A stretch of 35,204 nt of DNA, from assembly GCA_025351345.1 (NCBI GenBank), contig JANXWB010000035.1:1-35204 (forward strand), read 5' to 3'. Source of the stretch: Synechococcales cyanobacterium GL140_1_metabat_312. GTDB lineage: Bacteria > Cyanobacteriota > Cyanobacteriia > Leptolyngbyales > Leptolyngbyaceae. Within the stretch, counting starts at the first letter, position 1; each line of letters begins with the position of its first letter. A program made the translations under genes and the position numbers. This document shows, one piece after another, positions 468 to 23,644 of this stretch. The notes beneath the pieces were generated by a model, which was not told the DNA's origin, searched no databases, and worked only from the letters and a program-made list of their open reading frames with translations.

Positions 468-2914
<2,447 letters not shown>

Positions 2915-2980
2915 GGAAAGCTCTCCTAGGTCAGGATAAAGCGAGTTGAGATTAAATTCAGCGTTCCCTAGTTTCTCAGC

Positions 2981-3021
2981 ACAGGTTTCCCAGAACAGGT
3001 TTCCCGGTACAAGTTTCCAGA
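2981..3021. repeat. Tandem repeat, about 14 bp x 3
   Basis: Three adjoining units are seen: ACAGGTTTCCCAGA, ACAGGTTTCCCGGT and the degenerate ACAAGTTTCCAGA. They lie between the likely kinase start (2914) and nadC (3101). A 14-bp period is not a multiple of three, which argues against the stretch being coding in the leftward kinase frame. It may be part of the divergent promoter region. Confidence 0.7.
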
Positions 3022-3100
3022 ACAGAGTGTCCAAGACATTCACAGAACGGCAAATCACCACAATAATAGCTGGTATACAAGTCTACAGGCATAGTCTCCG

Positions 3101-3973
3101 ATGACATCGACATTTTTTCATGGCTTTTCCCTTCCCTCCAACTTGGTTTTAGATGTGTTGATTCAGCCCTGGCTTTTGGAGGATATTGGCCGGGGCGATC
3201 GAGTGACTCAAGCCTTGATGGTGAAGGGTTCGCAGAGAAATAGCGCCACTTGGATTGCGAAAGAAACTGGGATTGTTGCCGGATTGCCGATCGCAGCTCG
3301 GGTTTTCCAGCTTTTAGACTCAGACGTTGAATTTGAAGTCTGCGTAAAGGATGGCGATCGGGTTATGGCGGGCGAGATGGTTGCGAAGATTTCCGGGCCA
3401 TTTGAGGCGTTGCTGACGGGCGAGCGAGTGGCCTTGAATTTGGCGATGCGGTTGAGTGGAATTGCGACGGCGACGGAACGATTTGTGGCTCAACTTGAAG
3501 GCTTGAATACCCGATTTGCAGACACTCGAAAAACTACGCCAGGACACCGGATTCTGGAAAAATATGCGTCTCAGGTGGGCGGTGCAGTCAATCACCGGAT
3601 GGGTCTCGACGACTCCGCCATGATCAAAGACAATCATATTGCGGCGGCGGGCGGGATTGCCGAGGCGATCGCATTAGTCCGTGCCCAAATTCCCTATCCG
3701 TTGACGATTGAAGTGGAGACCGAAACGCTGAGCCAAGTTCAAGAAGCACTAGATCATGGGGCCGATATTATTATGTTGGACAATATGCCAATTTCAACCA
3801 TGCGTGAAGCGGTGACACTAATTCGACACTATGGCGATCGGATTTTAATTGAGGCTTCGGGGAATGTGAGTCTTGATAGTATTCGGGCGATCGCGGAAAC
3901 TGGGGTCAATATTATTTCTAGCAGTGTGCCCATGACTCGGAGTTCCTGGATGGACTTGAGTATGCGATTCTAG
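3101..3973 (+). CDS. nadC: Nicotinate-nucleotide pyrophosphorylase (quinolinate phosphoribosyltransferase)
   Basis: NadC joins quinolinate to PRPP and decarboxylates it to nicotinate mononucleotide, the entry point of de novo NAD synthesis. At 290 residues it has the normal length. The N-terminal open-faced sandwich domain carries GDRVTQAL and the glycine-rich GDRVMAGE region. The barrel domain carries the substrate-binding DTRKTTPG (141-148), NHR (164-166), KDNH (176-179), IMLDNM and EASGN motifs, ending SSSVPMTRSSWMDLSMRF as in bacterial homologues. No clear Shine-Dalgarno precedes the ATG. fumC follows 34 bp downstream on the same strand and may be co-transcribed. Confidence 0.96.
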   Translation: MTSTFFHGFSLPSNLVLDVLIQPWLLEDIGRGDRVTQALMVKGSQRNSATWIAKETGIVAGLPIAARVFQLLDSDVEFEVCVKDGDRVMAGEMVAKISGPFEALLTGERVALNLAMRLSGIATATERFVAQLEGLNTRFADTRKTTPGHRILEKYASQVGGAVNHRMGLDDSAMIKDNHIAAAGGIAEAIALVRAQIPYPLTIEVETETLSQVQEALDHGADIIMLDNMPISTMREAVTLIRHYGDRILIEASGNVSLDSIRAIAETGVNIISSSVPMTRSSWMDLSMRF

Positions 3974-13093: not shown

Positions 13094-14518
13094 CTATGAA
13101 GCGAAGGCTATGGTAAACACGCTACCACTACCCAGTTCCGATCGAATACTAATACTTCCACCCATGCCATCTACTAAGGTTTTAACAATGGCCAATCCTA
13201 GACCATGCCCGCCTGTATCACGAGTTCGAGATTCATCAACCCGATAAAACCGTTCAAAAATTCGACCTTGATCTTTAAGTGGAATCCCCACTCCACGATC
13301 GCAAACTTGAATGTTAATTTTTTGATTACTTTGATCAATTTTCAATATAATGGGTTGGTCAGCAGCAGAATATTTAACAGCATTATCAATTAGATTAATG
13401 AGGACTTGTTTGAGTCGATCGCGATCGCAGATGGTAAAGAAAGTCTCTGACGCTTCGATTTGAATGATCCGATTACTGAACTGTTCGGCCATTTCTGCGA
13501 CTTCAGTGACTAGTTCATTCAAGTTCACTCGATCGCGTCGATAAATCGTATAACCACTATCAGCACGAGCTAGATCAAGTAAATATTGTAGTAAATGCAC
13601 AGTGCGATCGGCTTCGGATGCGGCAGTTTCGAGAGCTTCTTTTTGATAATCATTCAAGTTTGTACTGCGACGGAGGAGACTTTGGAGGTAGCCCAAAACA
13701 ACGGTCAGCGGGGTGCGTAGTTCATGGGAAACATTACTCACAAATTGTCGCTGTTGCTCCCAAGAATCTGACAAACGTGACAACATCATATTAAAAGTCT
13801 GAGCTAATTCTTTGACCTCGCTAGGTGCATTGTTCAGGCGCAATTTAGCTTGACTCAAATCTTCTGCGGAAATGGCTCCAGCGATTTTATTCATTTCCTG
13901 TAAAGGTTGTAGCGATTGGCGAATCCTAAAGGCGATCGTAATAATCGTGGCGGTTGTGGCTAAAATACACACTACTGCTAAACTTTGAATCGCATTAATT
14001 AATTGGCGCTCCTCATCGGTCACATCTTTCGCCATATAGACTTTTCCCAACAGATTATTTTTTATCCAAATTTCACCTTGATACAACACTAAGAAACGAT
14101 CGTGAAACTGATAGACCATTGGCTGAAGCGGCATTTCCGCCAGTTTCATCAATTCCTCATCAGCCATAAAGGAAGAATTTGCACCATTAGATTGGGCCAA
14201 AAGCTGTTTATTATCCCCACTCTTAACCCAAATCACTAAATTGGGAACTGACACATTATCAATTGTTTTTTGTAAACCCACATTAGGCGGAAGCATATCA
14301 CTGTAAAGTTCAACATCACGGGGGAAACGAGTTGCGATATATTTTACATTTTGAGTATGGGTAGTGATGAGGATATCCTGCATTTTTCCGCTTGTCCAAG
14401 CTGCAACACTGCTCAAACTCAACACCGAAAGCATGGCAATTTCTAGAGTTAATCTAAACTGAAGTGAAAACCGATCGATCGGGTTTAATTTAATTATTTC
14501 TATGCCCCTTCTTATCAT
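13094..14518 (-). CDS. Membrane sensor histidine kinase (HAMP-HisKA-HATPase)
   Basis: This 474-residue kinase has membrane span 1 at about 25-42, a periplasmic sensor region at 43-177, span 2 at about 178-198, HAMP at 199-250, the H-box VSHELRTPL with phospho-acceptor His265, N-box LINLIDNAVKYS, G1 DRGVGIP and G2 GGHGLGLAI. It is the natural partner of the OmpR-type regulator whose stop codon is four bases upstream. The sensor region has four methionines at even spacing (118, 124, 129, 134) and no cysteine. The ATG at 14518 directly abuts the AGGAG, an unusually short spacing, so the start is uncertain; the open frame continues to 14590 inside the regulator gene. It is the last gene of the msrA-msrB-regulator-kinase run. 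Confidence 0.92.
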   Translation of the reverse strand: MIRRGIEIIKLNPIDRFSLQFRLTLEIAMLSVLSLSSVAAWTSGKMQDILITTHTQNVKYIATRFPRDVELYSDMLPPNVGLQKTIDNVSVPNLVIWVKSGDNKQLLAQSNGANSSFMADEELMKLAEMPLQPMVYQFHDRFLVLYQGEIWIKNNLLGKVYMAKDVTDEERQLINAIQSLAVVCILATTATIITIAFRIRQSLQPLQEMNKIAGAISAEDLSQAKLRLNNAPSEVKELAQTFNMMLSRLSDSWEQQRQFVSNVSHELRTPLTVVLGYLQSLLRRSTNLNDYQKEALETAASEADRTVHLLQYLLDLARADSGYTIYRRDRVNLNELVTEVAEMAEQFSNRIIQIEASETFFTICDRDRLKQVLINLIDNAVKYSAADQPIILKIDQSNQKINIQVCDRGVGIPLKDQGRIFERFYRVDESRTRDTGGHGLGLAIVKTLVDGMGGSISIRSELGSGSVFTIAFAS

Positions 14519-14522
14519 CTCC

Positions 14523-15200
14523 TTACTCCCGAACAACATAGCCAACACCTCGAATGGTATGTAATAAACGCTTTTCATTTTGGTCTTCAAGCTTCAGTCT
14601 TAAATAGCGAATATAGACTTCAATGATATTCGAGTCTCCCATAAAGTCATATCCCCAAACCTTCTCTAGAATTTGATCCCGTGTAAAAACTTGGCGTGGA
14701 TTACTCAATAGATATTCAAGTAAATCAAACTCTTTTACGGTCAACTCGATCGATCGTGTCCCCCGAAATACCTGTCTAGTTAGCCGATCGAGTTTAAGAT
14801 CTTGAAATCTCAAAACATTAGAGTCATCTGTTTGTATTTGTCGCAAATGGGCACGAATTCTGGCGAGCAGTTCTTCAATACTAAAGGGTTTAACCACATA
14901 ATCATTGGCACCCGCATCCAGCCCCGCCACCCGATCGCTAATCTCATCACGGGCCGTAAGAAAGATAATTGGCACCTTATTTCCCGTACTACGCAACCGT
15001 CTACATATTTCTACACCACTCATTCCAGGCAACATCCAATCCAACAAAATCATATCAGGACTGGACTCACGCACCAACGTCAAGGCATTTAACCCATCAT
15101 GCACCACCGTAATTTCATACCCTTCACTGCTCAATTCTAACTCGACAAATCGTGCAAGTTTGACTTCATCTTCAACAATTAGAATATGAGCAGCCATCAT
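14523..15200 (-). CDS. OmpR-family response regulator
   Basis: This 225-residue DNA-binding regulator has a receiver domain with acidic pocket EDE (10-12), phospho-acceptor Asp54 in ILLDWMLPGMSG, and Lys in VVKPFS. A winged-helix effector domain follows (about 128-225), with LTVKEFDLLEYLLSNP and ending TIRGVGYVVRE. AGGA lies upstream of two adjacent ATGs (15200 and 15197). It sits 55 bp after msrB and four bases before the kinase. OmpR-family regulators bind direct repeats with 11-bp spacing; such repeats occur in the control region between msrA and the divergent operon (16724-16805). It is inferred to control both units. Confidence 0.94.
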   Translation of the reverse strand: MMAAHILIVEDEVKLARFVELELSSEGYEITVVHDGLNALTLVRESSPDMILLDWMLPGMSGVEICRRLRSTGNKVPIIFLTARDEISDRVAGLDAGANDYVVKPFSIEELLARIRAHLRQIQTDDSNVLRFQDLKLDRLTRQVFRGTRSIELTVKEFDLLEYLLSNPRQVFTRDQILEKVWGYDFMGDSNIIEVYIRYLRLKLEDQNEKRLLHTIRGVGYVVRE

Positions 15201-15255: not shown

Positions 15256-15738
15256 TTATCCAGCGATAAATTTCAAGGCAGCACCATTCATACAATAGCG
15301 CTGTCCGGTGGGTTGTGGACCATCATCAAAAACATGCCCCAAATGTCCACCACACCGACGGCAATGGACTTCTAAGCGGGATCCATCTCGTCGGGTAGCG
15401 ATCGCATTCTCAATAGATGCATAAAAACTCGGCCAACCTGTACCACTCTCATACTTTGTTTTTGAATTAAATAGCGGTAAACTGCACCCTGCACAAGCAA
15501 AATTTCCAGCCCTATGTTCTTCTAAAAGCAGACTACTACCCGGTGCTTCTGTACCTTCTCGTCGCAGAATATCATATTGCTCGCGGGTTAGGATTTTGCG
15601 CCATTCGTCGTCGGTTTTATTAATTTCAAATTTAGCCCCTACCCGTGAATTCGCTTGGCTACGTTCTGGCAAATATTGCGATAACCAAATGCTACCGATC
15701 GCCGCACCACCTGCACTTAGTAAATATCGTCGTCTCAT
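15256..15738 (-). CDS. msrB: Exported peptide-methionine (R)-S-oxide reductase MsrB
   Basis: MsrB reduces the R epimer of protein methionine sulfoxide. The 160-residue protein starts with a twin-arginine-like signal (MRRRYLLSAGGAAIGSIWL), so it probably acts in the periplasm or thylakoid lumen. The catalytic domain has the zinc ligands CAGC (82, 85) and CRRC (126, 129), YESGTGWPSFY, the HLGHVF segment and the catalytic Cys149 in RYCMNGAAL. No further cysteine is present, so it has no resolving cysteine and needs an outside thiol donor. GGAG lies nine bases before the ATG. It lies 35 bp after msrA and is probably co-transcribed with it. Confidence 0.94.
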   Translation of the reverse strand: MRRRYLLSAGGAAIGSIWLSQYLPERSQANSRVGAKFEINKTDDEWRKILTREQYDILRREGTEAPGSSLLLEEHRAGNFACAGCSLPLFNSKTKYESGTGWPSFYASIENAIATRRDGSRLEVHCRRCGGHLGHVFDDGPQPTGQRYCMNGAALKFIAG

Positions 15739-16457: not shown

Positions 16458-16662
16458 TGCCTTTATCTCCTGCATAGATTAATAATAGCTGAATTGTACA
16501 AGATTTCTAATTGCACTTTTGTGTTTAGAATTGTTGGATGTAGGGCTTTTATCCGTGTAACAGAATTTCCAAAGTACTACTGATCCAGTATAACCCTGAA
16601 TAATGAAGATAATTTCATACTAGTAATTTCATTAAATAACTCCTAAAAGAATTGGGTGAACT

Positions 16663-16681
16663 GTATCTAAGTAGTATCTAA
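16663..16681. repeat. Direct repeat GTATCTAA with 11-bp period
   Basis: GTATCTAA occurs at 16663-16670 and again at 16674-16681, exactly 11 bp apart, on one face of the helix. This is the spacing used by dimers of OmpR/PhoB-type regulators. The repeat word differs from the CTGAR sites nearby, so it may be chance or a site for another protein. Confidence 0.35.
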
Positions 16682-16723
16682 ATAAAGTACTGTAACTCAC
16701 TGATATCAGAATCGCAGGATAAT

Positions 16724-16805
16724 CTGAATCTCTTCTGAGATAGTCCCTTAGATTTCCTGAAATTTCCCTGAAGATTTTTTTAGCCGAATCTCAGCAATTT
16801 CTCAG
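16724..16805. promoter_or_regulatory. Three CTGAR-N6-CTGAR direct repeats: candidate operator of the OmpR-type regulator
   Basis: Three direct repeats share one word and one spacing: CTGAA-N6-CTGAG at 16724-16739 (+), CTGAA-N6-CTGAA at 16757-16772 (+), and CTGAG-N6-CTGAG on the minus strand at 16790-16805. Each pair has an 11-bp period, the hallmark of OmpR/PhoB-family sites. The cluster lies 65-147 bp upstream of the lipoprotein ATG and between the two divergent operons, one of which encodes an OmpR-type regulator. Binding is inferred, not shown. Confidence 0.6.
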
Positions 16806-16870
16806 GAATAAAGGATAGGTTGAAATTAGAGAAACGAACTGAACTATTTACCAAATCTTAGAGAAGAATC

Positions 16871-17110
16871 ATGAAATCTAATCGTAAATTCCTTAGCTTA
16901 GCGATCGGTTTTGCCCTCATGACCAACCTTGCCGCTTGCAGTACCCCCGCTTCTAATTCAGGTGATGCAATGAAGAAAGATGGCGATGCAATGAAAGGTG
17001 GTGATGCGATGAAAGATGGCGATGCAATGAAAGGCGGCGATGCGATGAAGAAAGATGGTGATGCAATGAAAAGTGGCGATGCAATGAAGAAAGATGGTGA
17101 GAAAAAGTAA
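16871..17110 (+). CDS. Methionine-rich repeat lipoprotein (MXKDX-repeat / MrpX-like)
   Basis: The 79-residue product has a lipoprotein signal (MKSNRKFLSLAIGFALMTN, lipobox LAAC, Cys23). The mature part is almost wholly built of seven GDAMK units spaced six or seven residues apart, with Lys/Asp/Gly fillers and ending DGEKK. The mature 57 residues hold seven methionines in a hydrophilic, probably unfolded chain. It resembles the small 'pentapeptide MXKDX repeat' proteins, of which MrpX in Azospira is a periplasmic methionine-rich hypochlorite scavenger. It heads the rightward redox operon, 17 bp before the redoxin gene. A role as a renewable oxidant sink is inferred from context and composition; it could instead bind metal or serve a structural role. 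Confidence 0.88.
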   Translation: MKSNRKFLSLAIGFALMTNLAACSTPASNSGDAMKKDGDAMKGGDAMKDGDAMKGGDAMKKDGDAMKSGDAMKKDGEKK

Positions 17111-17127: not shown

Positions 17128-17730
17128 ATGAAAATGGATAGTAGTTCACTGAATCGACGGAGAATGATGACCTACTTGGGTTTAAGTATGGTGAGCTTGG
17201 GAGGGACGATCGCCTGTACTCCCCAAACGACCCAATCCAATAACTCAACACCAGACAAACCTATGGAATTATCGGGACAGGCACTAGCAGCTCAGCCTAG
17301 ACGATCGCTTCCAGAATTCCAAGGCATTGAACAATGGATTAACTCATCACCGCTGTCCATTCATGATCTCAAAGGCAAAGCCACGCTTATTCACATTTGG
17401 ACCTTTGGTTGTATCAATTGTCAACGAACATTACCCTATGTTATTCGTTGGCATGAACAATATGGAAAACAAGGTCTTAATGTAATCGGCATTCATACTC
17501 CCGAGTTTGGTTATGAGCGCGATATTGGCAATGTCAAACGAGCTATTCAGAAACGCGGCATCACCTATTCCAATGCGATCGACAATAAATTCACAATGTG
17601 GAAAGCATATAACAATGAATACTGGCCCCATCTGTTTCTCGCCGATCGTCAAGGCATCATTCGCTATGACCATGTTGGCGAAGGAGCCTACGACACCACT
17701 GAGAAAGCCATTCAAATGCTGCTGAGTTAA
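17128..17730 (+). CDS. Exported thioredoxin-fold protein resembling the C-terminal domain of DipZ
   Basis: The 200-residue protein has a twin-arginine-type signal (NRRRMMTYLGLSMVSL) ending at IAC, a possible weak lipobox. A thioredoxin/TlpA-like domain follows, with the active site WTFGCINC (Cys95, Cys98) and a cis-Pro region YWPHLFLAD. The segment LPEFQGIEQWINSSPLSIHD and the WT.-.CINCQRTLPYV active site closely follow the redoxin domain of DipZ-type proteins, which are fused to a CcdA domain in actinobacteria. Here the CcdA part is the separate next gene, 14 bp downstream. A likely role is to carry electrons from CcdA to envelope targets, plausibly MsrA and MsrB encoded in the divergent operon. 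The start could also be the ATG two codons later. Confidence 0.88.
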   Translation: MKMDSSSLNRRRMMTYLGLSMVSLGGTIACTPQTTQSNNSTPDKPMELSGQALAAQPRRSLPEFQGIEQWINSSPLSIHDLKGKATLIHIWTFGCINCQRTLPYVIRWHEQYGKQGLNVIGIHTPEFGYERDIGNVKRAIQKRGITYSNAIDNKFTMWKAYNNEYWPHLFLADRQGIIRYDHVGEGAYDTTEKAIQMLLS

Positions 17731-18462: not shown

Positions 18463-19065
18463 ATGAAAGAAGTTAAGGAATCCATCAAAAAACCTAAAGC
18501 CCCTAAACAAGATTTGCTAGCTAAGGCATTTCATTGGATTAACATTGTGAGTCTACTAATCATGACGAGTAGTGGATTACGAATTTATAATGCAAATCCT
18601 GTTTTTGGTGGGCGAGAGGGAATGCATTTATCAGGCACTTTTTTGTTAGGCGATGGGCTGGCGGATGGGCGGGTTTGGCATTTTGCAGCGATGTGGATTT
18701 ACGCCATCAATTTGCTAATCTACGGACTCTATATCTTTATAACAAAACGCTGGAAAAATCGCTTTGCGACGTCTAAGGATTTCAAAGCAGTCCAAGCTAG
18801 TGCTAATGAAAAACGGAAGATTTTCGCTGGACATAAGATTGTGTACACCGTGATCATTCCAATATTACTACTTGCGATCGTCTCTGGTGTAGTCATGTAT
18901 AAACCAGCCCAATTGCATTGGCTCGCAAATCTTTTTGGTAGTTGGCAAGTATTACGAACGGTCCATTTCTTGACGATTCCGATCGTACTAGGATTTACAT
19001 TTGTTCATTCACTTTTAGCCTTAAAATTTGGTGGAATACGATTGGTTAAATCAATGTTTGTATGA
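18463..19065 (+). CDS. Membrane cytochrome b (b561/YedZ-like), putative partner of the molybdoprotein
   Basis: The 200-residue integral membrane protein has four main hydrophobic segments (about 22-40, 72-93, 124-147 and 165-188). Histidines placed to bind b-type haem occur at 24 (AFHWINI), 73 (VWHFAAM), 124 (AGHKIVYT), 168 (TVHFLTI) and 182 (FVHSLLA). The pattern is that of the small cytochrome b561 / thiosulfate-reductase cytochrome b superfamily. It lies 28 bp after ccdA and 48 bp before a molybdopterin oxidoreductase. By analogy with MsrPQ (YedYZ) and YedY1/YedZ1 it probably passes quinol electrons to the molybdoenzyme. Its family is not identical to MsrQ, so the functional match is inferred. 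Confidence 0.85.
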   Translation: MKEVKESIKKPKAPKQDLLAKAFHWINIVSLLIMTSSGLRIYNANPVFGGREGMHLSGTFLLGDGLADGRVWHFAAMWIYAINLLIYGLYIFITKRWKNRFATSKDFKAVQASANEKRKIFAGHKIVYTVIIPILLLAIVSGVVMYKPAQLHWLANLFGSWQVLRTVHFLTIPIVLGFTFVHSLLALKFGGIRLVKSMFV

Positions 19066-20474: not shown

Positions 20475-20613
20475 GATAAATTAGAGTAGATGGGCAATAC
20501 CTTCAGACAATAGCGCCAAACTTGTAACGATCGCGAGATTGTTAATTCAAATTTCGGTAATCTCAAATTTTGGTAAACTAAGAACAGATGCAATCAAACC
20601 TAGGACTTTAATA

Positions 20614-20898
20614 ATGGCTGCCGACCCAATTACCCCTGCTATCAGCAATCGCATTTGCGCCCACATGAATGATGACCACGCAGAAGCCGTGCTACTTTAT
20701 GCCAAAGTCTATGGGAACTCCACCCAGGCAACCTCTGCCACGATGGTCGCGATCGATCCCCTTGGGATGGACCTAACGGCTGAAGTCAATGGCACCCCTA
20801 CGCCGTTACGGGTTTTATTTGATCATACCTTAGAGCATTCTGAAGATGCCCACACGACGCTAGTTCGTATGATTAAATCGGCTCGCAAGCCCGCCTAG
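20614..20898 (+). CDS. DUF2470-domain protein
   Basis: The 94-residue protein has the DUF2470 pattern throughout: ISNRICAHMNDDHAEAVLLY, ATMVAIDPLGMDL, the RVLFDHTLEHSEDAH helix and LVRMIKSAR. This domain forms the C-terminal part of HugZ-type haem-binding, flavin-reductase-fold proteins and also occurs alone in cyanobacteria and chloroplasts, where related proteins influence tetrapyrrole synthesis. Here it is a stand-alone domain. The frame is open upstream to a TTG, but the ATG at 20614 after AGGA is the sensible start. Conserved His residues (HMNDDH) could bind haem; this is inferred from the family. Confidence 0.85.
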   Translation: MAADPITPAISNRICAHMNDDHAEAVLLYAKVYGNSTQATSATMVAIDPLGMDLTAEVNGTPTPLRVLFDHTLEHSEDAHTTLVRMIKSARKPA

Positions 20899-22537: not shown

Positions 22538-22849
22538 ATGGCCATGGCCGTTGGAATGATTGAAACCGTCGGCTATCCCGCTGTCTTAGCCGCTGCTGAT
22601 GCCATGCTGAAAGCTGGAAACGTCGCTCTCGTAAATTACGAAAGCTGTGCCAGTGGCCGATACATGGTCTCAATTCGTGGGCCTGTCGCAGAAGTCCGAT
22701 CAGCGATGGAAGCAGGCATTGAAATGGTTGCCAAACTCCCCGGCGACGCGGAAGTCGTGAGCCATGTCATTATCCCCAATCCACCGGATAACCTAGAAGC
22801 CGTGTTACCCATTTGCTATGCCGCAACCGCCGAACCCTTTCGGATCTAA
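22538..22849 (+). CDS. ccmK3: Carboxysome shell protein CcmK3-like
   Basis: The 103-residue single BMC-domain protein belongs to the hexamer-forming carboxysome shell family. It has MIETVGYPAVLAAADAMLKA, VSIRGPVAEVRSAMEAG and a short C terminus, SHVIIPNPPDNLEAVLPICY...EPFRI. SHxIxPNPPxN and the IRGPV form mark the CcmK3 branch, in contrast to IRGDV and ARPHEN in CcmK1/2/4. The pore-loop stretch reads ESCASG, with a cysteine, unlike KIGS or RAGS. Known CcmK3 proteins assemble as heterohexamers with CcmK4, which matches the gene order here. It is first in a three-gene satellite locus away from any ccmLMNO genes. Confidence 0.9.
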   Translation: MAMAVGMIETVGYPAVLAAADAMLKAGNVALVNYESCASGRYMVSIRGPVAEVRSAMEAGIEMVAKLPGDAEVVSHVIIPNPPDNLEAVLPICYAATAEPFRI

Positions 22850-22898
22850 CGATCGCAGATTGAGGTAAATTAAACGAAACCATTTTTTAGGAACGCAC

Positions 22899-23246
22899 AT
22901 GCCACAAGCAGTTGGATCACTCGAAACAAAAGGCTTTCCCCCCGTACTCGCGGCGGCAGATGCCATGGTCAAAGCGGCAAGGGTGACGCTTGTGAGTTAT
23001 GTGAAAGCGGGAAGTGCGCGCTTTACTATCAATATTCGCGGTGACGTGTCCGAAGTGAAGCGGGCCATGGAGGCGGGCATCGAAGCGGCTGAGAATACCG
23101 CTGGCGGCGTAGTAGAGACGTGGGTAATCATTGCGCGTCCCCATGAGAACGTAGAAGCCGTAATGGATATTGAATACACGGAATCGGTAGAAATTTTCCG
23201 TTCAGCCGTGAATGGCTACAGCATGATTAATGGTCAGCGTCTCTAG
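22899..23246 (+). CDS. ccmK4: Carboxysome shell protein CcmK4-like, first copy
   Basis: The 115-residue BMC-domain protein has SLETKGFPPVLAAADAMVKA, the pore loop KAGSAR (36-41), INIRGDVSEVKRAMEAG and WVIIARPHENVEAV, fitting the CcmK4 branch. An AGGAA ribosome site precedes the ATG. It lies 49 bp after ccmK3 and 47 bp before a second CcmK4-like gene. Shell hexamers of this type tile carboxysome facets and their central pores are thought to control metabolite passage. The C-terminal tail (SAVNGYSMINGQRL) differs from that of the second copy, which could alter assembly partners. Confidence 0.9.
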   Translation: MPQAVGSLETKGFPPVLAAADAMVKAARVTLVSYVKAGSARFTINIRGDVSEVKRAMEAGIEAAENTAGGVVETWVIIARPHENVEAVMDIEYTESVEIFRSAVNGYSMINGQRL

Positions 23247-23293
23247 ATAGATTTTAGATAGGTATTTTAAAGGCATAGTTTAGGAGCGGCGGA

Positions 23294-23644
23294 ATGACAA
23301 AGGCAGTTGGATCACTCGAAACTATAGGATTTCCGCCCGTATTGGCAGCATCGGATGCCATGGTTAAAGCGGCAAGGGTGACACTCGTTAGCTATGTACG
23401 AGCAGGGAGTGCGCGCTACACTATTAATATCCGTGGCGATGTTTCGGATGTAAATACGGCCATGCAAGCGGGGGTTGAGGCAGCTCAAAAGACAGCAGGT
23501 GGGCATTTAGTCACTTGGGTCGTTATTCCCCGTCCCCATGAGAATGTCGAGGCAGTGATGAGTATTCAATATAATGAAGCAGTCGAAGGGTTTCGGCGCA
23601 ACATAGAAGGATTTAGCGTATTACCGATCGCCCCAGCCGAGTAA
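23294..23644 (+). CDS. ccmK4: Carboxysome shell protein CcmK4-like, second copy
   Basis: The 116-residue BMC-domain protein is a close paralogue of the preceding gene: SLETIGFPPVLAASDAMVKA, pore loop RAGSAR, INIRGDVSDVNTAMQAG and WVVIPRPHENVEAV. GGAG lies upstream of the ATG. Differences between the copies cluster in the helix after the pore strand and in the C-terminal tail (RNIEGFSVLPIAPAE). The RAGS pore loop and VIPRPHEN are closer to canonical CcmK4 than the first copy. A strong terminator follows, so the three ccmK genes probably form one transcript. The arrangement indicates a tandem duplication followed by divergence. Confidence 0.9.
   Translation: MTKAVGSLETIGFPPVLAASDAMVKAARVTLVSYVRAGSARYTINIRGDVSDVNTAMQAGVEAAQKTAGGHLVTWVVIPRPHENVEAVMSIQYNEAVEGFRRNIEGFSVLPIAPAE

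Follow-up and report, generated by a model that had tools for sequence, protein, structure and literature searches.

MrpX is a soluble periplasmic protein that Melnyk et al. reportedly described in 2015 together with YedYZ of Azospira suillum. In the available parts of the literature, it is proposed to be a sacrificial scavenger of HOCl that is recycled by the reductase encoded by yedYZ (PMC8315932, PMC4623255, PMC8550376). Two further proteins have been likened to MrpX by their authors in the accessible text of these papers (PMC8315932, PMC8550376), namely BcrX of Brucella melitensis, a methionine-rich MXKDX protein that is induced by HOCl and co-transcribed with the MsrQP genes (PMC8315932), and C3568 of uropathogenic Escherichia coli, which is encoded beside genes of the MsrQ and MsrP types (PMC8550376); both have been connected with oxidant resistance. 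The CcdA-Etrx-SpMsrAB2 pathways have been described in Streptococcus pneumoniae, and it has been reported for Limnospira that an MsrQ was not readily identified for its MsrP, each as given in the available portion of the source (PMC3914529, PMC8400943). Our search of the open-licence literature, covering titles and the openings of abstracts, returned no paper on such a sink that was lipid-anchored or came from a cyanobacterium.

Here we examine a gene for a short lipoprotein made of GDAMK repeats in a stretch of 35,204 nucleotides of cyanobacterial DNA, which we refer to as the window. The lipoprotein probably acts as a sponge that takes up damaging oxidants and can be recharged, a lipid-anchored cousin of a known bacterial kind. 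This reading is based on the presence of a methionine-repeat protein beside enzymes for the repair of methionine sulfoxide (MetO) in many cyanobacteria. From these comparisons, we conclude that it represents a predicted lipid-anchored variant of the sacrificial methionine sinks of the MrpX and BcrX type. For the whole explanation, in which a disordered methionine sink would be held in the cell envelope by its lipid anchor and recharged by 2 electron routes, we estimate a probability of about 0.7.

Organization of the locus

The lipoprotein gene (16871..17110, forward strand) is an open reading frame of 79 amino acids with an ATG start. The hydrophobic signal ends in the lipobox LAA/CS, which leaves a mature chain of 57 residues. 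Translation and lipobox confirmed what an earlier note had read from this DNA, namely 7 GDAMK units with a methionine every 6 or 7 residues and no cysteine besides the lipidated one. All 7 methionines of the mature chain are located within GDAMK units, at distances of 6 (4 times) or 7 residues (twice). The chain contains no aromatic residues, and MKKDG is present in 3 of the 7 units. The protein could not be assigned to any family in Pfam or NCBIfam. In the genome from which it was taken (3.85 Mb, 100 contigs), the gene itself was the sole strong match, 2 further matches with E-values of 0.34 and 0.93 being at noise level. The DNA pattern of the repeat gave 5 matches in the forward and none in the reverse direction in this genome, and none when the pattern was read backwards. 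The ortholog in a congener is 95% identical across residues 1 to 79.

The lipoprotein gene is followed on the same strand by 4 genes, with gaps of only 17, 14, 28, and 48 nucleotides between the 5. These encode a thioredoxin-fold protein of the TlpA/ResA/DipZ type with an Arg-Arg signal (17128..17730; Pfam AhpC-TSA/Redoxin), a CcdA/DsbD-like membrane thiol transporter with 2 cysteines, C23 and C134 (17745..18434; Pfam DsbD_TM, 38.0 bits, above the cut-off), a cytochrome b561-type membrane protein that is the putative electron donor to the molybdoenzyme (18463..19065; Pfam Ni_hydr_CYTB, 54.8 bits), and an MsrP-like molybdoprotein with a Tat signal, a lipobox (C31), and a putative molybdenum ligand, C123 (19114..19830; Pfam Oxidored_molyb, 123.4 bits).

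A divergent unit on the reverse strand encodes MsrA, with an N-terminal export signal or anchor identified by eye and a single cysteine, C66 (15774..16475; TIGR00401, 180.2 bits, above the cut-off), MsrB, with an arginine-rich export signal also identified by eye (15256..15738; TIGR00357, 159.5 bits, above the cut-off), an OmpR-type response regulator (14523..15200; Pfam Response_reg and Trans_reg_C), and a sensor histidine kinase (13094..14590; Pfam HisKA, HATPase_c, and HAMP), the start codon of which is uncertain because the listed frame overlaps the regulator. The best NCBIfam match of the kinase is to the heavy-metal sensor subfamily (TIGR01386, 246.2 bits, below the cut-off of 292.55). 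The start of the msrA gene is separated from the lipoprotein gene by 395 nucleotides (16476..16870), which presumably contain the promoters of both units. A scan for promoters and terminators around the lipoprotein gene revealed nothing above chance, and a search for inverted repeats identified one 22-nucleotide pair with 77% complementarity; no binding site for a regulator emerged. The earlier note had placed the lipoprotein first in an operon with 2 kinds of putative MetO reductase. It is indeed the first of the 5 co-directional genes; the run contains one putative MetO reductase, the MsrP-like protein, while the genes for MsrA and MsrB are on the opposite strand. The locus is thus better described as a pair of divergent units, with one putative MetO reductase in the unit of the sink and 2 in the other.

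It was also noted that a gene for a small DUF2470/HugZ-like protein (20539-20898) is located after a Sua5-like gene, an order that is kept in the congeners G001 and G002 (L079 and L078). Further downstream, a gene for a BMC-domain shell protein (22538-22849) is followed by 2 genes that look alike by eye (22538-23644 for all 3).

Like MrpX, the lipoprotein is a small, exported, methionine-rich protein encoded beside a molybdenum enzyme of the MsrP/YedY kind, here an MsrP-like protein that scores below the curated cut-off. The differences are that the sink is itself a lipoprotein, that the enzyme is also a predicted lipoprotein with a cytochrome b561 partner, and that a TlpA-CcdA pair is inserted between sink and molybdoenzyme, whereas MrpX is accompanied by yedYZ and sigF/nrsF. 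No ECF sigma/anti-sigma pair was detected among the 10 genes scanned at 13 to 21 kb, where the response regulator and kinase were found instead. With BcrXQP and C3568, the locus shares a gene for a methionine-rich peptide adjoining an msrP homolog, but those systems have an MsrQ-type partner, are controlled by an ECF sigma factor (Brucella) or a two-component system (E. coli), and are described without TlpA and CcdA genes in the available parts of the reports (PMC8315932, PMC8550376). The pneumococcal pathway resembles the locus in combining a thioredoxin-fold protein, there a lipoprotein, with a CcdA-type membrane protein in the service of extracytoplasmic Msr enzymes. It differs in its MsrAB2, as opposed to separate MsrA and MsrB proteins, and its description, as far as available, includes neither a molybdoenzyme nor a dedicated methionine-rich substrate (PMC3914529).

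Residues retained in the repeats

To describe the composition of the repeats, we collected lipoprotein chains selected as methionine-rich (at least 7% Met), so that the methionine counts below measure regularity and not an unbiased rate. The final set contained 41 chains, from which L155 had been removed as a spurious frame and to which L034 and L158, missed by the lipobox filter, had been added. The methionine-rich proteins L044, L047, and L129, which look like signal peptidase I substrates, and the second lipoprotein L105 were kept outside this set. Since the initial filter excluded chains with at least 3 W, F, H, or R residues, the search was repeated with this filter dropped and the lipobox widened. 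Apart from a misread L156, this yielded only L034 (with its duplicate L130), L105, and L158, and no further chain of a different make-up.

The 41 mature chains comprise 3318 residues beyond the lipidated cysteine, of which 376 (11.3%) are methionine. Phenylalanine, tryptophan, tyrosine, and arginine are absent, and there is one cysteine and one histidine, which means that methionine is practically the sole oxidizable residue. The number of methionines per chain ranges from 3, as in the ortholog in G013, to 19.

Repeat units of the form GAY-GCN-ATN-AAR contained ATG as the third codon in 297 of 297 cases, that is, the third codon never specified isoleucine, while the other codons varied: Asp was encoded by GAC (104) and GAT (193), Ala by GCA (43), GCC (110), GCG (87), and GCT (57), and Lys by AAA (136) and AAG (161). 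At the amino acid level, counted over 40 chains that still include the spurious L155, methionine occupied the third position of D-[A/S]-x in 298 of 319 cases, lysine followed methionine directly in 275 of 352, and aspartate was largely kept 2 positions before it (309 of 352). Lysine was not the main residue after methionine in 10 of the 41 chains, which used Gly, Ser, Glu, Gln, or Asn instead, and the net charge ranged from -20 to +3 across 39 chains. A loss of methionine with retention of the Lys/Asp pattern, which would have spoken against the sink, is contradicted by this pattern: methionine is regular and aspartate is kept too, while lysine and net charge vary. The family represents a natural sequence experiment in which methionine stays while the remaining repeat drifts.

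Linkage to redox genes in related genomes

We searched for the lipoprotein in 58 genomes, consisting of the genome of the window and 57 relatives. Matches with E-values up to 0.01 were obtained in 19 genomes, and this number was reduced to 18 by the removal of G026 as false. One sink, in G022 (L080), was added by its operon position, resulting in 19 of 58 genomes with a methionine-rich exported protein of this kind. In all 19, the sink gene was located beside genes for TlpA, DsbD, cytochrome b, or MsrP on the same strand, with the neighborhood partly visible in G001, G003, G011, and G014, where a contig ends, and with a distance of about 0.9 to 1.3 kb to the TlpA gene in G050 and G056. In G050, the arrangement is kept with a distance of 1.3 kb to the TlpA gene downstream, and the exported protein (L047, 337-819) has DSMSKPG repeats and a longer C-terminal domain. 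The MsrA gene was part of the sink operon in 4 relatives (L033, L036, L045, and L080), and in the congener G001 (L029) the MsrA-MsrB unit was not adjacent to the sink ortholog. A second locus in G056 (L105) encodes its own methionine-rich lipoprotein upstream of the cytochrome b and msrP genes. The matches in G026 (L017), G031 (L028), and G047 (L026) were rejected as methionine-poor repeat lipoproteins.

For a sample that is independent of the sink, we collected all MsrP-like matches down to an E-value of 4.8e-55. This gave 54 rows, 49 of which had at least 2.5 kb of upstream sequence; the other 5 (L030, L079, L081, L104, and L113) were left out. The sink was present in 14 of 14 MsrP-like loci with both TlpA and DsbD genes and in 2 of 35 loci without them (L044 and L105), which corresponds to a Fisher p-value of 1.8e-10 that is uncorrected for kinship and overstates the association because the MsrP-like loci are related. 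In the uncounted L030, with 1.3 kb upstream, the sink was present without TlpA and DsbD. Conversely, the congener G002 (69% complete) has kept the cytochrome b and MsrP genes in L078 without the lipoprotein, TlpA, and DsbD. The order cytochrome b-msrP-Sua5 is preserved in L078, and a frame of 507 codons of the SLH/porin type, judged by eye, replaces the 3 missing genes upstream of the cytochrome b gene (2705-3325).

A phylogeny of the MsrP-like proteins (53 rows) showed that the presence of the sink was clustered, with 8 changes as compared with 14.7 in shuffled data, none of 500 shuffles being as low. The sink-associated proteins did not form a single clade in this tree, in which several forks were weak and 2 long branches met. 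Of 386 genomes sampled across the phylum, 8 were recognized as containing the gene by a fixed DNA pattern of 3 DAMK units, a number that under-counts the gene and is no measure of prevalence, since the repeats vary and many of the sampled genomes are small.

Public genomes were also scanned with an alignment of TlpA, irrespective of the sink, and the best 80 loci were retained. Among these, 49 were cyanobacterial, including the top-ranked ones and L127, which is titled Tatlockia and was counted as cyanobacterial by its sequence. The other 31 were proteobacterial or Chloroflexi by title, except for one from Terriglobia. Together with the BMC shell protein gene of the window, the cyanobacterial loci identify the host as a cyanobacterium. 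A methionine-rich lipoprotein was encoded upstream of TlpA in 28 of the 49 cyanobacterial loci among the best 80 (L149 and L150 being alike and on one contig). No sink was identified in 19 of the 49, of which L135, L146, and L159 start less than 220 bases from the TlpA gene, nor did any of these 19 contain a methionine-poor counterpart upstream of TlpA; L134 has an unrelated thioredoxin-like lipoprotein at this position. In L137, a methionine-rich acidic lipoprotein is encoded downstream of TlpA, and L129, from the Chroococcidiopsidaceae, contains a different methionine-rich exported protein with SMM and AMM repeats between DsbD and MsrA. The C-terminal region of the latter has a match below the cut-off to spore-cortex/peptidoglycan hydrolase families, and the protein is perhaps a wall-tethered sink.

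Alternative explanations for the repeats

Methionine thioethers can also chelate metals, and the lipoprotein could be a Cu(I)- or Ag(I)-binding protein under the control of the kinase, which most resembles the heavy-metal sensor subfamily. There is a parallel in E. coli, where msrPQ and the cus copper pump are placed under one regulator and CusF is repaired by MsrP, according to the available part of the report (PMC9302797). However, the shortest distance between methionines in the 41 chains is 5 residues (130 of 335 gaps), a spacing that disfavors copper binding. The methionine arrangements known for copper sites are MxM and MxxM, and neither occurs here. Moreover, the 41 chains are nearly devoid of histidine and cysteine and lack tryptophan, no copper gene was recognized in the 10 genes scanned at 13 to 21 kb, and the sink is linked to genes of the MetO reductase type. 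We consider metal binding improbable as the main role. A redox reporter, the MetO state of which is sensed by the neighboring kinase or another partner that sets the expression of the reductases, would fit the two-component system in the divergent unit and the related kinases or regulators that several relatives (L030, L031, L032, L039, and others) have close to the operon. Yet the kinase is absent from the stretches examined around L033, L035, L038, L043, and L045, all of which contain the lipoprotein, and a methionine number that varies from 3 to 19 is more suited to a capacity than to a signal; we consider signaling improbable as well.

The composition of the lipoprotein is that of a disordered chain, and it could serve as a hydrophilic spacer or LEA-like shield in which the charge pattern matters and methionine is incidental. 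Relatives do contain methionine-poor lipoproteins with Ala/Gly/Lys repeats (L017 and L028), but their surroundings (L042 and L046) include no gene for TlpA, DsbD, cytochrome b, or MsrP, and no such protein takes the place of the sink in the 19 sink-less TlpA loci. The regularity of methionine, set against the variable net charge and the inconstant lysine, disfavors a pure spacer, which we hold to be unlikely. A recyclable, MrpX-like methionine sink is the reading that the comparisons support well, through the gene neighborhood, the regular methionines, and the MXKDX proteins of homologous betaproteobacterial operons.

MXKDX proteins in cyanobacteria and betaproteobacteria

The curated family model TIGR02953 (penta_MxKDx, pentapeptide MXKDX repeats, cut-off 41 bits) represents exported proteins that are short and built of Met-Lys-Asp units in tandem, a trait that is seen in the lipoprotein with its signal, lipobox, and 7 GDAMK units. 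The model itself did not match the lipoprotein at E-values up to 1, or any protein of the same genome at E-values up to 0.1, and the GDAMK units are spaced by 6 to 7 residues, unlike penta_MxKDx. Cyanobacterial orthologs at the same operon place are nevertheless recognized by the model: the cut-off was passed by operon sinks in 5 of the 58 genomes (G003, G006, G022, G033, and G047), and in a rescan of 4 methionine-rich proteins, L034, L044, and L045, already among those that pass, were matched again and L129 was not.

We also scanned 21 non-cyanobacterial genomes, representing 21 of the 31 non-cyanobacterial TlpA loci, and found MXKDX proteins above the cut-off in 7. In each of these betaproteobacterial loci (L227-L233, one per genome), the MXKDX gene follows genes for cytochrome b561 and an MsrP-like protein (7 of 7), and within flanks of 1.5 kb MsrA is encoded alongside in 3 (L227, L228, and L229) and MsrB in L229. 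The membrane partner was verified as PF01292 cytochrome b561 by Pfam in L228 and L229, and the genome of L229 contains additional MXKDX matches (L234-L236). The conserved order suggests a b561-type family of MetO reductases that would be distinct from MsrPQ. In contrast to the predicted lipidation of the window protein, the betaproteobacterial MXKDX proteins look by eye like signal peptidase I substrates.

Ten matches to the model below the cut-off, in 8 relatives, were not near genes for TlpA, DsbD, cytochrome b, or MsrP in any case (0 of 10, in stretches of 7.5 to 10 kb). Most consisted of other repeats, such as SDSLS and DVVQK, while methionine repeats were seen in 3, from G011, G057, and G022 (the last exported by eye), so methionine-rich repeats also occur without reductases. 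These methionine repeats include GSMQN/GSMQD and DSMNP repeats in L242 (G022 contig 14, 2727-2915), which looks exported, and in L241 (G057), both away from MsrP-like genes.

Putative reductases and electron routes

The best solved relative of the MsrP-like protein is 1xdq, which we take to be YedY, with the molybdenum-binding cysteine aligned. Its score of 95.7 bits to the MsrP equivalog NF003767 is well below the cut-off of 207, so that MetO as its substrate is not certain but a guess from linkage. Residues R12, R13, C31, and C123 showed no variation across all 18 cyanobacterial sequences that were aligned. Since the twin arginines are followed by a lipobox cysteine, the enzyme and the sink would share a membrane face. 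A lipobox was present in 42 of the 45 methionine-rich exported proteins of these cyanobacterial loci, including L105, the exceptions being L044, L047, and L129. A Tat signal with lipobox was also found in 5 of the 7 betaproteobacterial MsrP-like proteins, the other 2 being unreadable in the frame taken. The suggestion that lipid anchoring holds the sink near membrane reductases therefore gains support, as the MsrP-like enzyme has a conserved lipobox too.

The membrane partner in the window has no Ferric_reduct match in Pfam, and His24, His73, His168, and His182 were invariant in 12 of 12 aligned sequences. PF01794, which presumably represents MsrQ, a ferric-reductase-like heme protein, was not found as the partner; PF01292 cytochrome b561 was found instead. 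Cytochrome b561, and not MsrQ, is the likely electron donor to the molybdoenzyme, which names a candidate donor for a putative MetO-reducing molybdoenzyme without MsrQ beside it. All parts of an extracytoplasmic thiol pathway are likewise present, with a CXXC motif of the TlpA type, a CcdA-type cysteine pair, and MsrA and MsrB, both exported by eye. The active site C95-I-N-C98 of the TlpA-like protein, which among solved structures comes closest to DipZ (5cyy/2hyx) in a profile comparison, was invariant in 15 of 15 aligned sequences.

In the mechanism that we propose, the exposed methionines of the sink would take up strong oxidants, such as HOCl, peroxides, or singlet oxygen, and be converted to methionine sulfoxide, which would spare other envelope proteins. 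The sink could then be recharged from quinol via cytochrome b561 and the lipid-anchored MsrP-like molybdoenzyme, or from cytoplasmic thiols, the electrons of which would pass through the CcdA/DsbD-like and TlpA-like proteins to the exported MsrA and MsrB. We infer the oxidation and recharging of the sink, the 2 electron routes, and the oxidant, while the sequence, the lipobox, the conserved linkage, and the regularity of methionine are what the analysis shows. The joint coding of sink, reductases, and 2 possible electron routes makes every step accessible to single gene removals. Sacrificial methionine, an idea developed in proteobacteria, would thereby extend to cyanobacteria of various groups.

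Much more tentatively, the locus might encode an undescribed oxidant-reducing machine at the membrane face, with a lipid-anchored substrate in which only methionine reacts, a short lipid-anchored MsrP-like enzyme that receives quinol electrons via b561 and not MsrQ, and a thiol branch. Its site may be the lumen side of the cyanobacterial thylakoid, where peroxide or singlet oxygen from photosynthesis, rather than HOCl, would be the oxidant. If such a machine exists, it would explain the report that an MsrQ to go with the Limnospira MsrP was not readily identified, as stated in the available part of that study (PMC8400943).

The thiol route finds support outside the cyanobacteria. Six Pseudomonas loci and one from Gallionella among the best 80 TlpA loci (L166-L171 and L186) contain an open reading frame with a TlpA-like domain between the genes for MsrB and MsrA, an arrangement that supports a flow of electrons from thiols to both enzymes.
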